From contig LBMP01000001.1 in NCBI GenBank assembly GCA_001184205.1, forward strand, positions 1-64,000: DNA of 64,000 nucleotides, given 5' to 3'. Of this stretch, positions 3,284 through 9,806 are shown piece after piece. The notes below the pieces were generated by a model, which saw nothing but the letters and a program-made list of their open reading frames with translations, searched no databases and had not been told where the DNA came from. A program made the position numbers and the translations under genes. The first letter of the stretch is position 1. Each line of letters opens with the position of its first letter. This DNA comes from Desulfocarbo indianensis. GTDB taxonomy: Bacteria > Desulfobacterota > Desulfarculia > Desulfarculales > Desulfarculaceae.

Positions 3284-3412
3284 TCCCAAGCCGCTGGGGG
3301 CCGATTGCCTCATCGCGGTGTATAAATGGCCATCCCCCGCCTTTGCAGTTAGGGCATCGGGCCGCCGCCCCAAGGGGTGGGCCGCTGGCCGGGCCCAGGG
3401 AAGAGACGCCAA

Positions 3413-4600
3413 ATGATCGGAATCAGCAAACTTTACTGTGGCACCGTGGAGCCCTCCGACGCCCTGCGCTACGGCCGCCACTCCAAGGAATTGCCCAGCC
3501 ATCTCCTGCAATTCGCCGAGGACAAGAAGCCGGTGGTGGTCTGGAACATGACCAAGGCCTGCAACCTGAAATGCCTGCATTGCTATGCCCAGGCCACGGC
3601 CGGGCCCAGCGCTGACGAGCTTTCCACGGCCGAGGCCAAGGTCATGATCGACGACCTGGCCCGATTCGGGGCCCCGGTGCTCCTTTTCAGCGGCGGCGAA
3701 CCCCTGATGCGCCAGGACCTGCCCGAGCTGGCGCGTTACGCCGTGTCCAAGGGCATGCGGGCGGTGATCAGCACCAACGGCACCCTGATCACCCGCGACA
3801 AGGCCAAGGAACTCAAGGACATAGGCCTATCCTACGTGGGGGTGAGTCTGGACGGCCTGCCCGAGGTGCACGACAAGTTCCGGGGCGTGGCCGGCGCCTT
3901 TGACGACGCCATGGCCGGCATCCGCAACAGCATGGAGGCGGGCCTCAAGGTGGGCCTGCGCTTCACGGTTTACGCCAAGAACGCGCCCGAGGTGCCCGGC
4001 GTGTTCGATCTCCTGGAAAAGGAGGGCATCCCCCGGGTCTGTTTCTATCACCTGGTCTACGCCGGCCGGGGCAGCCGGCTAATGGACGAGGACCTCTCCC
4101 ACGAAGGCACCCGCCGGCTCCTGGACCTCATCATGGACCGCAGCAAGGCGCTCTTTGACAAGGGCCAGACCCCCGAGGTGCTTACCGTGGACAACCACGC
4201 GGACGGGCCGTTCGTATACTTGCGCATGCTGCGCGAGGACCCGGAGCGGGCCAAGGAGGTGCTGGAGCTGCTCAACTGGAACGAGGGCAACTCCTCGGGC
4301 CGGGGCATCGGCTGCGTGAGCTGGGACGGCAGCGTGCACCCGGACCAGTTCTGGCGTCACCTCACGGTGGATAACATTCGCAAGCGGCCTTTCAGCGAGA
4401 TATGGACCGACCTGAGCCACCCCATCCTGGGCAAGCTCAAGGACAAGCGGCCTTATCTAAAGGGGCGCTGCGCCCAGTGCAAGTGGCTGAACATCTGCGG
4501 CGGCAATTTCCGGGTGCGCGCCGAAGCCGCCACCGGCGACCTCTGGGCCCCGGACCCGGCCTGCTACCTGACGGATGAGGAGATAGGGCTCACCGCCTGA
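3413..4600 (+). CDS. ahbC: 12,18-didecarboxysiroheme deacetylase (radical SAM, alternative heme pathway)
   Basis: Catalyses removal of the two acetate side chains of 12,18-didecarboxysiroheme to give Fe-coproporphyrin III, in the siroheme-dependent heme pathway of sulfate reducers and archaea. The 395-residue protein begins MIGISKLYCGTVEPSDALRY, a stretch I recognise as typical of AhbC. It has the radical SAM motif CNLKCLHC (about residues 50-57), the GGEP motif, and a C-terminal cysteine-rich region (GCVSWDG, CAQCKWLNICGG, DPACYL) for auxiliary Fe-S clusters. I chose the ATG at 3413; an ATG 36 bp upstream would add 12 unrelated residues. A second, diverged copy of its last 35 codons occurs at 5781-5894. 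hemB, a heme-pathway gene, lies downstream at 8832, and the two were probably adjacent before foreign genes entered. Confidence 0.93.
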   Translation: MIGISKLYCGTVEPSDALRYGRHSKELPSHLLQFAEDKKPVVVWNMTKACNLKCLHCYAQATAGPSADELSTAEAKVMIDDLARFGAPVLLFSGGEPLMRQDLPELARYAVSKGMRAVISTNGTLITRDKAKELKDIGLSYVGVSLDGLPEVHDKFRGVAGAFDDAMAGIRNSMEAGLKVGLRFTVYAKNAPEVPGVFDLLEKEGIPRVCFYHLVYAGRGSRLMDEDLSHEGTRRLLDLIMDRSKALFDKGQTPEVLTVDNHADGPFVYLRMLREDPERAKEVLELLNWNEGNSSGRGIGCVSWDGSVHPDQFWRHLTVDNIRKRPFSEIWTDLSHPILGKLKDKRPYLKGRCAQCKWLNICGGNFRVRAEAATGDLWAPDPACYLTDEEIGLTA

Positions 4601-4758: not shown

Positions 4759-5463
4759 CTACTCACCGAGTATCCTGACAGCAACTTGCTCGTAAGCATA
4801 AGCAATGTATTCATACGTTATATTATTGTCGCAAACGAACTCTTTAAAGGCGCGATATTCATGATGCTGCCAATTGGGGTAATTGAAATATTCATCAAAA
4901 ACAATGATAGTTCCATTAACGATCCTGTTTCCTAATTGAATGAAAATATCTTTTGCCGAAGAATACACGTCAGAGTCTACATGCATGAATGCGATATTGC
5001 CTTCGTAATTATTCCCCCATAAAGGAATGGTATCGGAAAACCAACCGGGATACAATGTTACATTACTTGGCATTTTGGGGAGCTTTCCTTTTATATCAAA
5101 ACGTTCCTTCTTGATATTCGCGCCCGACCAATCCGATGGCAATCCCTCGAAAGAATCAAAGCCATGAACATGTATGTCCCCTACTTGATTGGCAATAAAC
5201 TTTAAACTATCGCCCTTGTAAACACCAAGCTCCAAGTAATGCCCTTTTATCTTAACCTGAGCCAAAGCATACTCCAATATGTCTTGGCGCATTTGCATGC
5301 CCAAGGCTTTCGGCATATTTTTCTGTATATAGTCTGCTGATTCCTTCAATGCTCTTCGCGACATTTCCTGCATCGGGTGAAGCGAGACCAATTTCACGGT
5401 ATTGGCTACCAAATGCAGGACCCTATAGACCATTTTTCTAATTAAAAAGCTCCTTAAAACCAT
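4759..5463 (-). CDS. TylF/MycF-type class I SAM-dependent methyltransferase
   Basis: A protein of 234 residues with a Rossmann-type SAM site LELGVYKGDSL (about residue 77), HGFDSFEGLP, an acidic metal/SAM patch HVDSDVYSS, and GTIIVFDEYFNYPNW. This motif order is characteristic of the TylF/MycF macrocin O-methyltransferase family, which also has many members in surface polysaccharide and glycolipid modification. The substrate is unknown. The gene is clearly more AT-rich than its surroundings, has no sugar-biosynthesis neighbours, and points against ahbC. It lies between ahbC and the duplicated ahbC tail, so it is probably a horizontally acquired orphan. Confidence 0.8.
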   Translation of the reverse strand: MVLRSFLIRKMVYRVLHLVANTVKLVSLHPMQEMSRRALKESADYIQKNMPKALGMQMRQDILEYALAQVKIKGHYLELGVYKGDSLKFIANQVGDIHVHGFDSFEGLPSDWSGANIKKERFDIKGKLPKMPSNVTLYPGWFSDTIPLWGNNYEGNIAFMHVDSDVYSSAKDIFIQLGNRIVNGTIIVFDEYFNYPNWQHHEYRAFKEFVCDNNITYEYIAYAYEQVAVRILGE

Positions 5464-5780
5464 TTATAACTTCCAATTAAAATGATAGATCACATGTGGC
5501 TTTTAAGCCGCACCCATTTCCATCACCGGCTAAAATAAAGATTTCAGGCTCAGGCGGGTACTTGGTAAATTCTTCCGAGGTGCTGTTGGCCAGGGAGTCG
5601 CGGGGCCGACGGCTTTTGTAACATTAATGTCAATATTCAGTGTTTTGGTGGGCGGCGTCTAAGGAAAAAGAAACCGTGGGCGCTCAAACACCCATCCCGC
5701 GGCATCCGCTTATCAAGCCCCAGACGGGCCACCATGCGTGTTAAAGGGTGGTTCTCTTGCTCCACCTACGCCGTGGCAGG

Positions 5781-5894
5781 TGGCTGAACGTCTGCGGCGG
5801 CAATTTCCGGATGCGCGCCGAAGCCGCCACCGGCGACCTCTGGGCCTCGGCCCCCGCCTGTTGCCTGACGGATGAGGAGATAGGGATTAAATGA
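5781..5894 (+). pseudogene. Diverged copy of the 3' end of ahbC
   Basis: By my hand alignment, 5781-5885 matches 4484-4588 of ahbC with 7 mismatches in 105 bp. It still reads in frame (WLNVCGGNFR... then LTDEEIGIK and a stop at 5892-5894). The upstream 15 bp show weaker similarity with a one-base gap, and then homology ends. There is no start and no radical SAM core, so it cannot be functional. Some mismatches are silent and some are not, so it looks like a fragment from a related genome rather than a recent copy. Confidence 0.88.
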
Positions 5895-5903
5895 TTTCAT
5901 TGT

Positions 5904-6479
5904 CTAATCTAATTTAACCGATTTCAGGAACCTCTTCTCGATGAGTTCAGCAACCTTTTCCTGTATTGTTGAAAGTAAAAAATGCGGTTTGATATCGTAA
6001 ACCAACTGTGCCAAGCGCTCCACTGATAGTAATTGATAACTTAGCGCAGCATTTCTATCCATATATATTATCGTGGTTATCAATTCTAAATCTTTTGCAT
6101 ATAGCCCACCAAATCCATTAATAATAGAGTCGATACTTGCGCGACACTTTTCCAAAAAATCATTTGATCTCTCAATAAGTTCCTTAGATTTGTCAGCAGG
6201 TATTATATTATATCCCCCCTTGCCTGATTCAACATAATTTACAGAAACTCCTCCTATATGCTCTGTAAAGTCAAGGTCGTCTAAGACCTCTGCGCAAAAC
6301 GGTCCATAAGTATACAGCCTATATTCATATCCCAGATCAACTCCTCCTATTTCTTGAATTAGATATATTAATTTCTCCAATGCTGTCTTACCAAACTGCG
6401 GAGATTTACCTAAAAGTGCTTCTGAAAGTTCTGATATGAGGCCATACTTATACCAAGGCATTTCTATCTTTTGGTTCAT
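5904..6479 (-). CDS. Small protein partner of the HD phosphohydrolase (YwgA-like, tentative)
   Basis: A protein of 191 residues in AT-rich DNA. It overlaps the upstream HD gene by 4 bp (ATGA), so the two are almost certainly co-translated. The segment FGKTALEKLIYLIQEIGG followed by YEYRLYTYGPF resembles the N-terminal winged-helix-like part of YwgA and of Panacea/DUF4065-type proteins. In Bacillus, as I recall, ywgA lies next to ywfO, an HD phosphohydrolase; the arrangement here is the same. The function of YwgA is not known to me. The stop lies only 10 bp from the duplicated ahbC tail. A defence or regulatory role with the HD enzyme is inference. Confidence 0.6.
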   Translation of the reverse strand: MNQKIEMPWYKYGLISELSEALLGKSPQFGKTALEKLIYLIQEIGGVDLGYEYRLYTYGPFCAEVLDDLDFTEHIGGVSVNYVESGKGGYNIIPADKSKELIERSNDFLEKCRASIDSIINGFGGLYAKDLELITTIIYMDRNAALSYQLLSVERLAQLVYDIKPHFLLSTIQEKVAELIEKRFLKSVKLD

Positions 6480-7813
6480 GAGAGTCCTCCCTCTTCCTGC
6501 CGAAGGTCCTCTATTTTTCTCCTTACTTCCAGCTTTTTTTCATTGGTTGAATACAGTCTTATTTGGCGGACGGTTGGCAATCCCTTAACCACGCTTGACA
6601 TCTTAGATAGTGGCTTAGCTTTTTCATGCCTACTACCCATGTCATGTATAATATGAATTTCTTCTTCTTTGCTGAATTTATACCAACTTTTATCTGCCTT
6701 ATCGGTAAACTTAATTTGGCTGCCGAGACTTTCAATTATTGTGTTGGCTAATTCCAGATCATTGGGACTTAGCGCTTCTGGAGTTTGATGTACCCACCTA
6801 TAATGGTTTCTATTCCTTATAATTTCTCCATGTTCCCCACCACCGCCTTCTGCAAGTTTGCCTAGTACTTTCCAATCATCCCACCTTAAGTATTGATCCA
6901 AATTTTCAACACTAGTTGGCGGAGGGAAGCAATCCTTTTGTTCTAAATCTGTATTTCTCTGTTCTTCCGCAAGCATATATTTTATAGCCTGTTCTATATG
7001 ATGATCATAAGCTCTGCGAGTCCGCTGGTAATAAACTTGTGTAAACATCATGTAACGTGCGATTATCAATCCCTCTGCTGCATGCTCCCCCCCATTCTCA
7101 ACTGCAATGATAAAACCTTCACCCTCTGGCTGTCTTCCGATCGTCATAGTCACCAATAGTCGGTTCAAATCATATCTGCCATATTCAACTCCGATATGAT
7201 GTGCGTCTCTTAATAAATAATCTGCCCTATCGGCATCAAGTTGGCCCGATAAAAGATCACACCACAAAAGGCTCCTACCAATGGCTGGATTTCTTGTTAT
7301 AAAATTGGCTATATCATCAGATTTAAATTCTCTGTTTTGATTTAAAGGATGGTTTTGGATAACATCTCGCAACAAGAGACTAACTATTGCGCTTGAATAA
7401 TCTTCGTGATTATATGCTTTGCCGGTGTTGTGATTTATTGGCATCAGGTTCTCAGATGCATGTGAAAAGGGGGGGTGTCCTACATCATGCAGCAGAGAGG
7501 CAAGCCTTAGTTTGCATAAATCGCGTATAATGCCTCCTTCATCATAATTCATGTTTTGCTCTAAATATTGCTTACGCTTTGAGACGATTCCATTGAACAT
7601 TTCGGTGGCAACGTGCATTGCCCCTAAGGAATGCTCAAAGCGAGTGTGCTCCGCACCAGGATATACCATATTGGTCCAAGCTAATTGCTTTATTCTTCTT
7701 AGTCTCTGAAAAGCGGGATGATCAACTATCTCCCGCTCCCAGTCATTCAGCTTTACAAAACCATATATGGGATCCCTGAACTCATGCTTTCTTGAGTCTG
7801 CGAAGTTAAGCAC
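6476..7813 (-). CDS. HD-domain phosphohydrolase (dGTPase/YwfO-like)
   Basis: About 445 residues. The core carries HTRFEHSLGAMHVA, LLHDVGHPPFSHASE and DADRADYLLRDAHH, the H...HD...D metal-binding set of SAMHD1/dGTPase-like HD enzymes (about residues 50-225). Conserved family features at the N terminus are DPIYGFV and FQRLRRIKQLA. By family it should hydrolyse a nucleotide, possibly a dNTP; the substrate cannot be read from the sequence. I prefer the GTG at 7813, preceded by AGGGGGG; an ATG at 7837 would add 8 residues, and one at 7879 lies on the predicted -10 box and is unlikely. The DNA is AT-rich, unlike the flanks. The gene is first in a two-gene operon with the 5904-6479 gene. Confidence 0.85.
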   Translation of the reverse strand: MLNFADSRKHEFRDPIYGFVKLNDWEREIVDHPAFQRLRRIKQLAWTNMVYPGAEHTRFEHSLGAMHVATEMFNGIVSKRKQYLEQNMNYDEGGIIRDLCKLRLASLLHDVGHPPFSHASENLMPINHNTGKAYNHEDYSSAIVSLLLRDVIQNHPLNQNREFKSDDIANFITRNPAIGRSLLWCDLLSGQLDADRADYLLRDAHHIGVEYGRYDLNRLLVTMTIGRQPEGEGFIIAVENGGEHAAEGLIIARYMMFTQVYYQRTRRAYDHHIEQAIKYMLAEEQRNTDLEQKDCFPPPTSVENLDQYLRWDDWKVLGKLAEGGGGEHGEIIRNRNHYRWVHQTPEALSPNDLELANTIIESLGSQIKFTDKADKSWYKFSKEEEIHIIHDMGSRHEKAKPLSKMSSVVKGLPTVRQIRLYSTNEKKLEVRRKIEDLRQEEGGLS

Positions 7814-7876
7814 AATCCCCCCTGGACGCCCCTGCATTATATACAATCTACAGTAGCAGACACCTCCAATATGGAC

Positions 7877-7904
7877 CATATATTGTTTCCGACATCTTTG
7901 TCAA
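7877..7904 (-). promoter_or_regulatory. Promoter of the HD/YwgA-like operon
   Basis: TTGACA (7899-7904) is separated by 16 bp from TATATG (7877-7882) on the minus strand. The start site would fall near 7870, which supports the GTG at 7813 or the ATG at 7837 as start codon. Confidence 0.55.
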
Positions 7905-7950
7905 CTAGTAAGCTATACATATGTATATCAACATTATTATTTCCATATCG

Positions 7951-8079
7951 CCTCTCCCATTGACCCCACCCCAGCCTTGCACTGTCACTGAAACATCCCA
8001 TTTGCTACCCCTTGAGCGGAGGCTTTCCCATGGTTCGCATGCGGCGTCTGCGCCGCGCCGAAGCCATGCACGACATGTT
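7951..8079 (+). pseudogene. Diverged copy of the hemB leader and first codons
   Basis: This stretch matches 8754-8894 upstream of and inside hemB: CCTCTCCCATTGACCCCA, ACTGAAACATCCC, then GGTTCG(C/T)ATGCGGCG and GCCGCG. It differs at many positions and lacks about 11 bp that include the hemB start codon. Reading stops at a TAA near 8089. It is a non-functional remnant that includes the noncoding leader, so it came from a genome with the same hemB upstream region. Confidence 0.82.
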
Positions 8080-8089
8080 CTCAAACTAA

Positions 8090-8422
8090 TTACTTGGTAA
8101 TCGCTTCCTCCACCTTCTCCGCCACCCAGGCGTTCAAGCTCTTATTCTCCTGCTTTGCCGCCGCCGCCGCCGCGCGGTGCAGCTCGGGCGTAAGCCGCAA
8201 ATTGAAGCGCCCGGAAAAGGGCTTTTCCGGCTCCCTGCCCATCTCAGCGCAGAACTCCAGATAATCCTCAACCGAATCGGCCAAGGCCTCCTTAAGCTCG
8301 TCAACGGAGCGCCCTTCGAACGTCACCACGTCATTGATGTTCACCACCCGGCCATGGAACAGGTCCGCCTCCGGGTCATAGGAGAACAAACCGACGTAGT
8401 TCTTGTAGCGTAAGTTATTCAT
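8090..8422 (-). CDS. hicB: HicB-family antitoxin
   Basis: A protein of 110 residues. The N-terminal half, YVGLFSYDPEADLFHGRVV to SVDELKEALADSVEDYLEFC, is the degraded RNase H-like fold of HicB antitoxins. The C-terminal part, FNLRLTPELHRAAAAAAKQ with SLNAWVAEKVEEAI, is a ribbon-helix-helix DNA-binding domain. It neutralises HicA and should repress the operon. Its ATG overlaps the hicA stop (ATGA). The stop lies 10 bp from the hemB remnant. Confidence 0.9.
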   Translation of the reverse strand: MNNLRYKNYVGLFSYDPEADLFHGRVVNINDVVTFEGRSVDELKEALADSVEDYLEFCAEMGREPEKPFSGRFNLRLTPELHRAAAAAAKQENKSLNAWVAEKVEEAITK

Positions 8423-8697
8423 TTTCTTGTCTCCGGCGGTGGGATTTGAACCCGCGACCTGATCAAAAACTCGCGCACCGACTCCACCGCGCCCTTGTTT
8501 GTCGTCGGCTGCGGATGCGGCCGATGAAAGACAGCCGCCACGCCATTCAACATGACCCGGACCCGCGATCCCCGGCCTTCGCTTAGCTCCGCGCCCAAAC
8601 CGCGCAAAAGCGATTCAATATCCTTCCAGGCTATGCCCGCTTTGGTCGGTTCATGAAAAATTTCCTCCCAGATGCGGCGATGTTTGCTGTTCACCAT
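8419..8697 (-). CDS. hicA: HicA-family toxin with an altered C terminus
   Basis: Toxin of a type II system; HicA proteins are small double-stranded-RNA-binding-fold mRNA interferases. Of 92 residues, about 1-78 look like HicA, including [29 protein letters not shown] with the catalytic histidine region (FHRPH) and VESVREFL. The last 13 residues, [12 protein letters not shown] and neighbours, are read from DNA that resembles the 3' end of a tRNA (8427-8462), so the native C terminus has been replaced. The order hicA-hicB and the 4-bp overlap are usual. Activity of this variant is uncertain. Confidence 0.85.
8427..8462 (-). repeat. tRNA 3'-tail-like sequence, possible attachment-site remnant
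   Basis: On the minus strand, GGTCGCGGGTTCAAATCCCA followed by CCGCCGGAGACA resembles the T arm and 3' acceptor strand of a tRNA, nearest to tRNA-Leu-type tails by eye. One T-stem pair is mismatched and no 5' half exists. Such tails are the usual targets of tyrosine integrases. There is no integrase in the window. Confidence 0.55.
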
Positions 8698-8738: not shown

Positions 8739-8831
8739 ATGCAACCCCGATCTCCTCTCCCATTGACCCCATCCCAGCCCTGCGGTATTACTGAAACATC
8801 CCGTTTGCGACCCCCCCACCGGAGGCAGCCC

Positions 8832-9806
8832 ATGAGCTTTCCCCTGGTTCGTATGCGGCGCCTGCGCCGCACTCCCGCCCTGCGCGACATGGTGGCCGAG
8901 ACCACCCTCGGCGTGAACGACCTCATCTACCCCATGTTCGTGGTGGAGGGCCAAAACCTGGTGCAGCCGGTGCCCTCCATGCCGGGCATCGACCGCTTCA
9001 GCGTGGACAAACTGGTGGAGGAATGCCGGGCCGTGGCCGGCCTGGGCATCCCGGCCATCATCCTCTTCGGTATTCCCGATAAAAAAGACCCCCTGGGCCG
9101 GGGGGCCTACGACCCCAAGGGCATCATCCCCCGCGCGGTGAGCGCGGTGAAAAAGGCGTTGCCCGAACTGGTGGTGATCTGCGACGTGTGCATGTGCGAA
9201 TACACCGATCACGGCCACTGCGGCATCCTGGATAACCAAGATGTACACAATGACGCCACCATCGAGCTCTTGGCCAAGGCCTCCCTGGCCTACGTCAAGG
9301 CCGGGGCCGACCTGGTGGCGCCCTCGGACATGATGGACGGCCGGGTTCTCGAGATACGCGAGACCCTGGACGAGGCGGGTTTCGACCACATCCCCATCAT
9401 GTCCTACGCGGCCAAATACGCCTCGGCCTTTTACGGCCCCTTCCGCGACGCCGCCGAAAGCACCCCCGCCTTCGGCGACCGCCGCGCCTATCAGATGGAC
9501 CCGCGCAACGTGCGGGAAGCCCTGCGCGAGTGCGAGCTGGACGTGATCGAGGGCGCGGACATGCTCATGGTCAAACCGGCCCTGCCCTACCTGGACGTCA
9601 TCGCCAAGGTGCGCGAGGAATTCGATCTCCCCCTGGCCGCCTACAACGTCTCCGGCGAATACGCCATGCTCAAAGCCGCCGCGGCCAACGGCTGGCTGGA
9701 TTACGACCGGGTCATGCTGGAAACCCTCACCGGCATCAAACGCGCCGGCGCAGACCTGATCCTCACCTATCATGCCAAAGAAGCGGCGGCGCTGTTGAAT
9801 AAGTAG
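8832..9806 (+). CDS. hemB: Delta-aminolevulinic acid dehydratase (porphobilinogen synthase)
   Basis: Condenses two 5-aminolevulinate molecules to porphobilinogen, an early step of all tetrapyrrole synthesis. The 324-residue protein starts [13 protein letters not shown] after a GGAGG site; an upstream ATG at 8739 would add residues read from the leader. The zinc site [14 protein letters not shown] is present, as are the two active-site lysine regions: SYAAKYAS and [11 protein letters not shown]. With ahbC it belongs to heme/siroheme synthesis. Its leader is copied, in diverged form, at 7951-8079. Confidence 0.96.

Follow-up and report, generated by a model that had tools for sequence, protein, structure and literature searches.

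Depletion of dNTPs is an antiviral strategy common to humans and bacteria, and how a bacterium that uses it protects itself matters. Among the closest described systems is Clover, which consists of the dNTPase CloA and the nucleotidyltransferase CloB; the latter makes p3diT, a nucleotide inhibitor that holds CloA in check, an unrestrained dNTPase being toxic (PMC12265719). Here, we describe an HD-domain gene and a small partner gene in a 64,000-nucleotide stretch of Desulfocarbo indianensis (contig LBMP01000001.1; hereafter, the window). We read the pair as a two-gene anti-phage module in which a dNTP-depleting effector would be restrained by a directly binding DarG-type protein, and we give this reading a probability of about 0.58. 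Our literature search found no paper on YwgA together with an HD protein or on Panacea together with one, and the terms HD-domain, phosphohydrolase, dNTP and YwgA were not found in the text of a 2026 BREX survey. Provisionally, then, the pair is apparently undescribed in the literature searched, most subscription papers lying outside that search.

A cassette between ahbC and hemB

The pair lies between ahbC and a gene that we take, from its sequence, to be hemB. The features of this region are as follows.

3410..4600, plus strand: ahbC (12,18-didecarboxysiroheme deacetylase), bounding the insertion site on the left (TIGR04546, 726 bits, cut-off 650)
5766..5885, plus strand: scar, a copy of the ahbC 3′ end (original at 4468-4588; local alignment, ~93% identity)
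5904..6479, minus strand: partner, a putative stand-alone DarG C-terminal-domain-like protein of the YwgA/Panacea superfamily, 191 aa (DarG model, AlphaFold2/PDB match, homologues)
6476..7813, minus strand: predicted HD-domain dNTP triphosphohydrolase of the EF1143/SAMHD1 type (phmmer, Foldseek, invariant residues)
7875..7904, minus strand: candidate promoter TTGACA-N18-TATGGT (TTGACA at 7904, TATGGT at 7875; consensus scan 10/12)
7947..8077, plus strand: scar duplicating the 5′ end of hemB and the region upstream of it (original at 8750-8891; 76% over 142 columns, E 6e-26)
8829..9806, plus strand: presumed hemB (porphobilinogen synthase), bounding the insertion site on the right (homologues in 19 of the 21 genomes searched)

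From ahbC to hemB, the order is a TylF-like methyltransferase gene, the ahbC scar, the partner gene, the HD gene, the hemB scar and hicB-hicA. The partner ORF (5904-6479) and the HD ORF (6476-7879) are both intact on the minus strand, with the 4-bp overlap between an HD gene and a 191-residue partner that the first-pass annotation had reported. The longest HD ORF extends to an ATG at 7879 (467 aa), and reading from the GTG at 7813 gives 445 aa. The latter is the probable start, since the starts of homologues cluster near residue 25-30 of the longest ORF (alignment of 27 homologues), a ribosome-site-like GGGGGG run precedes the GTG, and the -10 box of the best-matching promoter sequence shares bases with the ATG. 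That match supplies a candidate for the promoter that had been claimed for the cassette, but it is a weak one, as the consensus scan returned 6 promoter-like sites in the region against 6.0 in shuffled sequences, without excess. An odd palindrome, ATATGGTCCATAT (7870-7890), lies on the candidate -10 box; it may be an operator or could be due to chance.

The region is compositionally foreign to its surroundings, in agreement with the earlier description of it as AT-rich: the 2 kb with the pair have a GC content of 0.40, below all 310 sampled 2-kb segments (mean 0.64, sd 0.06), and the GC3 values of the two cassette genes are 0.32 and 0.37, compared with 0.87-0.89 in hemB and ahbC. The flanking remnants mentioned in the same annotation are also present, with the ahbC and hemB scars on either side of the cassette. 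Left of the ahbC scar, the methyltransferase gene (4759-5463), likewise AT-rich, forms a separate insert, and a HicB-HicA toxin-antitoxin pair (8090-8697) lies between the hemB scar and hemB, the only classified defence system beside the window copy.

In six relatives of the same family (L182 and L186-L190), ahbC likewise follows a 1448-type gene and is separated from hemB by a gap of 1.2-3.5 kb. The cargo of this gap differs and is mostly AT-rich: a DUF5131 gene with an AT-rich neighbour in L182 and L186, a DUF5131-like gene and another gene in L189, and unrelated genes elsewhere. The HD pair is absent from the gap in all six, and the gaps of two relatives contain short copies of the ahbC 3′ end that stop near the same point as the window scar. 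In a class-level relative, ahbC directly abuts hemB. The simplest reading is that the gap is a recurrent, family-wide insertion hotspot, where the copied gene ends may have come in with the inserted pieces or been left by them; we conclude that the HD gene and its partner were recently inserted there as one unit.

The HD protein and its partner

Searched against the PDB with phmmer, the HD protein matched 2hek from Aquifex (3e-41), 2o6i (EF1143; 3e-35) and SAMHD1 (1e-21), and its best Foldseek matches were EF1143 with dGTP bound and SAMHD1. Across 27 homologues, residues H83, H131-D132, H140, E143, H158 and D217 do not vary, which bears out the complete HD metal motifs seen earlier; we assign metal-binding and catalytic roles to them from the SAMHD1 alignment. 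With the HD motif, the metal ligands, the catalytic His and Glu residues and a matching predicted fold all in place, the protein is probably, by sequence and fold, a dNTPase of the EF1143/SAMHD1 type, and we infer its activity from that family. The earlier label 'dGTPase-like' was too narrow: the nearest relatives are of the EF1143/SAMHD1 type, all dGTPase equivalog cut-offs are missed by far, and the antiphage dGTPase model NF041026 gives 29.2 bits against a cut-off of 400 bits.

The AlphaFold2 model of the partner (pLDDT 95) has as its best PDB match chain B of the DarTG complex 7YK3 (probability 1.00, TM 0.64, 16% identity), the only PDB entry below E 0.01. The PADLOC DarG model is matched by the partner at positions 160-305 of 329, its C-terminal part, and by all 27 members of the partner family (best 5e-14). 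PDB sequence searches with the partner alone returned chance-level matches only, and those with a partner profile returned a weak match to DarG. Neither a macrodomain within the 191 residues nor a match to nucleotidyltransferase families was found. The suggested link to PF13274 (Panacea/SocA, DUF4065) is weak: some match was detected in 16 of 27 homologues (best E 9e-6), and the partner itself reaches 15.7 bits, below the gathering score of 25.7. On sequence and modelled structure, the partner appears to be the C-terminal domain of DarG in free-standing form. This domain binds DarT in DarTG, and the name is more informative than YwgA. The invariant residues of the partner are K36, G59, L131, E132, T136 and K164.

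Among 297 sampled genomes of the window's phylum, partner-profile matches fell into two groups, stand-alone proteins mostly of 130-210 aa and longer proteins. An HD gene adjoins 12 of the stand-alone partners, including that of the window, and none of the long proteins, which are mostly of the DarG type. Seven of seven tested long homologues of DarG-like size combine a macrodomain with the partner domain, i.e. are DarG; an eighth, of another size, carries DUF488, and DarT was confirmed upstream of DarG in both loci tested. A few short matches have non-HD neighbours. At L086 (1086-1893), the overlapping neighbour of a partner-type protein resembles, by eye, a RelE-type toxin gene, hinting that the partner domain serves other toxins too.

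Recurrence and genomic context

Given that HD peptides were the sole query in our genome scan for relatives, the scan did not select for the partner. The partner nevertheless lies directly downstream on the same strand, at -14 to +24 bp relative to the HD stop codon, in all 21 relatives with both genes complete, and is also found at two further loci, L020, which is truncated, and L038, where the HD frame is broken. About nine phyla are represented in the close family, and they are interleaved in the HD tree; many branches are weak, and therefore no formal transfer test is claimed. Two viral contigs carry close pairs: on one (L192), the pair adjoins a terminase that shares 65% identity with its counterpart in Geobacillus phage GBSV1, and the genes flanking the second pair gave no phage match. 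No plasmid or isolate phage carried a close pair above 60% identity, and the partner had no plasmid match. The cassette had been called mobile from the window alone; the scattered phyla, the variable insertion site and the copy on a phage are in keeping with this, although its surroundings in the window showed neither an integrase nor a transposase.

A defence neighbour could be identified by name at 4 of the 23 genome loci, many of the contigs being short MAG pieces. In two unrelated genomes (L018 and L022), the pair is embedded in type III BREX operons with the order brxF-brxC-[HD-partner]-pglXI, all on one strand; at L020, brxC overlaps the HD gene in an operon seen as far as the contig reaches, and at L016, DpdA is downstream of the pair. 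At a threshold of 1e-10, 122 neighbour proteins matched 72 PADLOC families, compared with 13, mostly generic, for 122 control proteins from the same genomes, figures that represent a contrast rather than a significance test because the matches are not independent. The first-pass annotation had asked whether the pair recurs in defence islands, which the constant pairing and the BREX and DpdA contexts answer positively; the adverse outcome that it had named, in which the partner is unrelated to YwgA and the two genes co-occur nowhere else, was not observed.

In the window's own phylum, the pair was within 1.5 kb of none of ~21 type III brxC genes, so that it can be regarded as an optional accessory of type III BREX, and the idea that these systems usually carry it was rejected. 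In 9 of the 12 loci of this phylum where the gap between brxC and pglXI was fully read, it holds another gene, usually of about 600 aa. The window copy is outside any brxF-brxC-pglXI operon, and the type III BREX of its own genome is not beside it but on another contig (L150), where a HATPase-domain gene is located between brxC and pglXI, and genes for an OLD-TOPRIM ATPase and a UvrD helicase, reminiscent of Gabija, follow the operon. L212 (3764-4210) holds a short piece of HD sequence with 71% identity over 59 residues, and its neighbours look like the type I restriction-modification genes hsdM and hsdS.

Relatives of a different character are found in Bacilli. Priestia megaterium has a YwfO-like HD gene followed by a gene for a 170-aa protein, upstream of tautomerase and site-2-protease genes, and this pair matches both the HD and the partner profiles (170-aa protein, E 8e-14). 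We take the 170-aa protein to be YwgA from the gene order in Bacillus; the earlier proposal of a YwgA-like partner holds because the protein following the YwfO-type HD gene matches the partner profile. In Bacilli, related HD genes are found at stable chromosomal positions, the Priestia pair being part of a gene order of this kind, and in Listeria and Staphylococcus aureus the HD gene has no partner. These observations fit housekeeping control of the nucleotide pool, in which trimming of dNTPs would serve replication fidelity or quiescence and the partner would be an allosteric regulator with no link to phages. YwfO-YwgA of Bacillus may work in this way, and a cell-cycle role has been published for a bacterial dNTPase (PMC12186491). 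However, the close family spans about nine phyla, with members inside BREX operons and on a phage, and the pair in the window occupies a variable AT-rich insertion site, so that we consider such a role unlikely. The partner's DarG toxin-binding fold, the 4-bp coupling of the genes and the HicAB genes in the same insertion site would also suit a plain addiction module, an HD toxin and its antitoxin stabilizing mobile DNA without a phage trigger. Yet the effector gene comes first and the regulator second, the enzyme exceeds 440 aa and is substrate-allosteric in known relatives, and placement inside BREX operons favours defence over simple retention, making this a rather improbable explanation. 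Production of an inhibitory nucleotide by the partner, on the Clover logic of an HD dNTPase with a small partner gene (PMC12265719), seems very improbable, as nucleotidyltransferase families gave no match to the partner, whose model resembles DarG, not a Pol-beta nucleotidyltransferase.

Proposed mechanism and comparison with known systems

We therefore return to the anti-phage module as the preferred reading. The product of the upstream gene, of the SAMHD1/EF1143 type, would split dNTPs into deoxynucleosides and triphosphate, and the downstream, translationally coupled partner would bind the enzyme and keep it inactive in the healthy cell, as the DarG domain holds DarT. Infection would relieve this inhibition, either through a phage protein or a change in the nucleotide pool sensed via the partner, or through loss of the partner, and the ensuing dNTP depletion would block phage DNA synthesis. 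The module may spread with phages and with type III BREX operons, in which the pair is an optional component, and may have entered the present genome through the ahbC-hemB hotspot. Several points weigh against this reading, namely the four named defence neighbours among 23 loci, the 0 of ~21 own-phylum brxC loci with the pair, the chromosomal stability of the HD genes in Bacilli, the window copy having no classified defence system beside it except HicAB, and the modest resemblance of the partner to DarG (TM 0.64, 16% identity).

The Bacillus YwfO-YwgA pair has the same gene order, and the Priestia protein in the YwgA position matches the partner profile, but the stable chromosomal position and low identity set it apart from the cassette. 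Single-gene antiphage dGTPases (PADLOC dGTPase; NF041026) share the HD dNTPase superfamily and dNTP depletion with it, whereas the cassette enzyme (29 bits vs 400) belongs to the SAMHD1/EF1143 branch and has a constant partner gene. Enterococcus faecalis EF1143 and human SAMHD1, its best sequence and structure matches, agree with it in fold and in metal and catalytic residues; SAMHD1 differs in its added SAM domain, and neither is known to have a DarG-like partner gene. The partner has a weak profile match to Panacea (SocA/DUF4065), whose related antitoxins pair with many toxin types in PanAT systems (PMC8832971, PMC10440598), but is below the Pfam cut-off, and membership was left unclaimed; a text search of these two papers found no HD-hydrolase or dGTPase partner. 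DarTG has in common with the cassette the toxin-binding C-terminal domain of DarG, but here there is neither a macrodomain nor DarT, and the paired gene encodes an HD hydrolase rather than an ADP-ribosyltransferase. Clover is likewise a two-gene module with an HD-domain dNTPase effector, a likeness judged from the conserved HD motif, and in it the second gene restrains the first, as the partner would here. CloB, however, is a Pol-beta nucleotidyltransferase, whereas the partner, with no match to such families and a fold like that of the DarG C-terminal domain, would inhibit by binding, and membership of Clover was accordingly rejected. We tentatively suggest, although we would sooner bet against it than for it, that the cassette represents a third way to regulate dNTPase immunity, beside effectors with no known restraint and the nucleotide signal of Clover. 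In it, a SAMHD1-type effector would be restrained by a DarG-type inhibitor, and it would occur as a stand-alone pair, as a back-up effector embedded in BREX and on phages. If so, one toxin-binding scaffold, the DarG domain used against DarT, has been re-used on an unrelated effector, which would give a likely meaning to many pairs annotated as 'HD domain protein' and 'hypothetical protein'.
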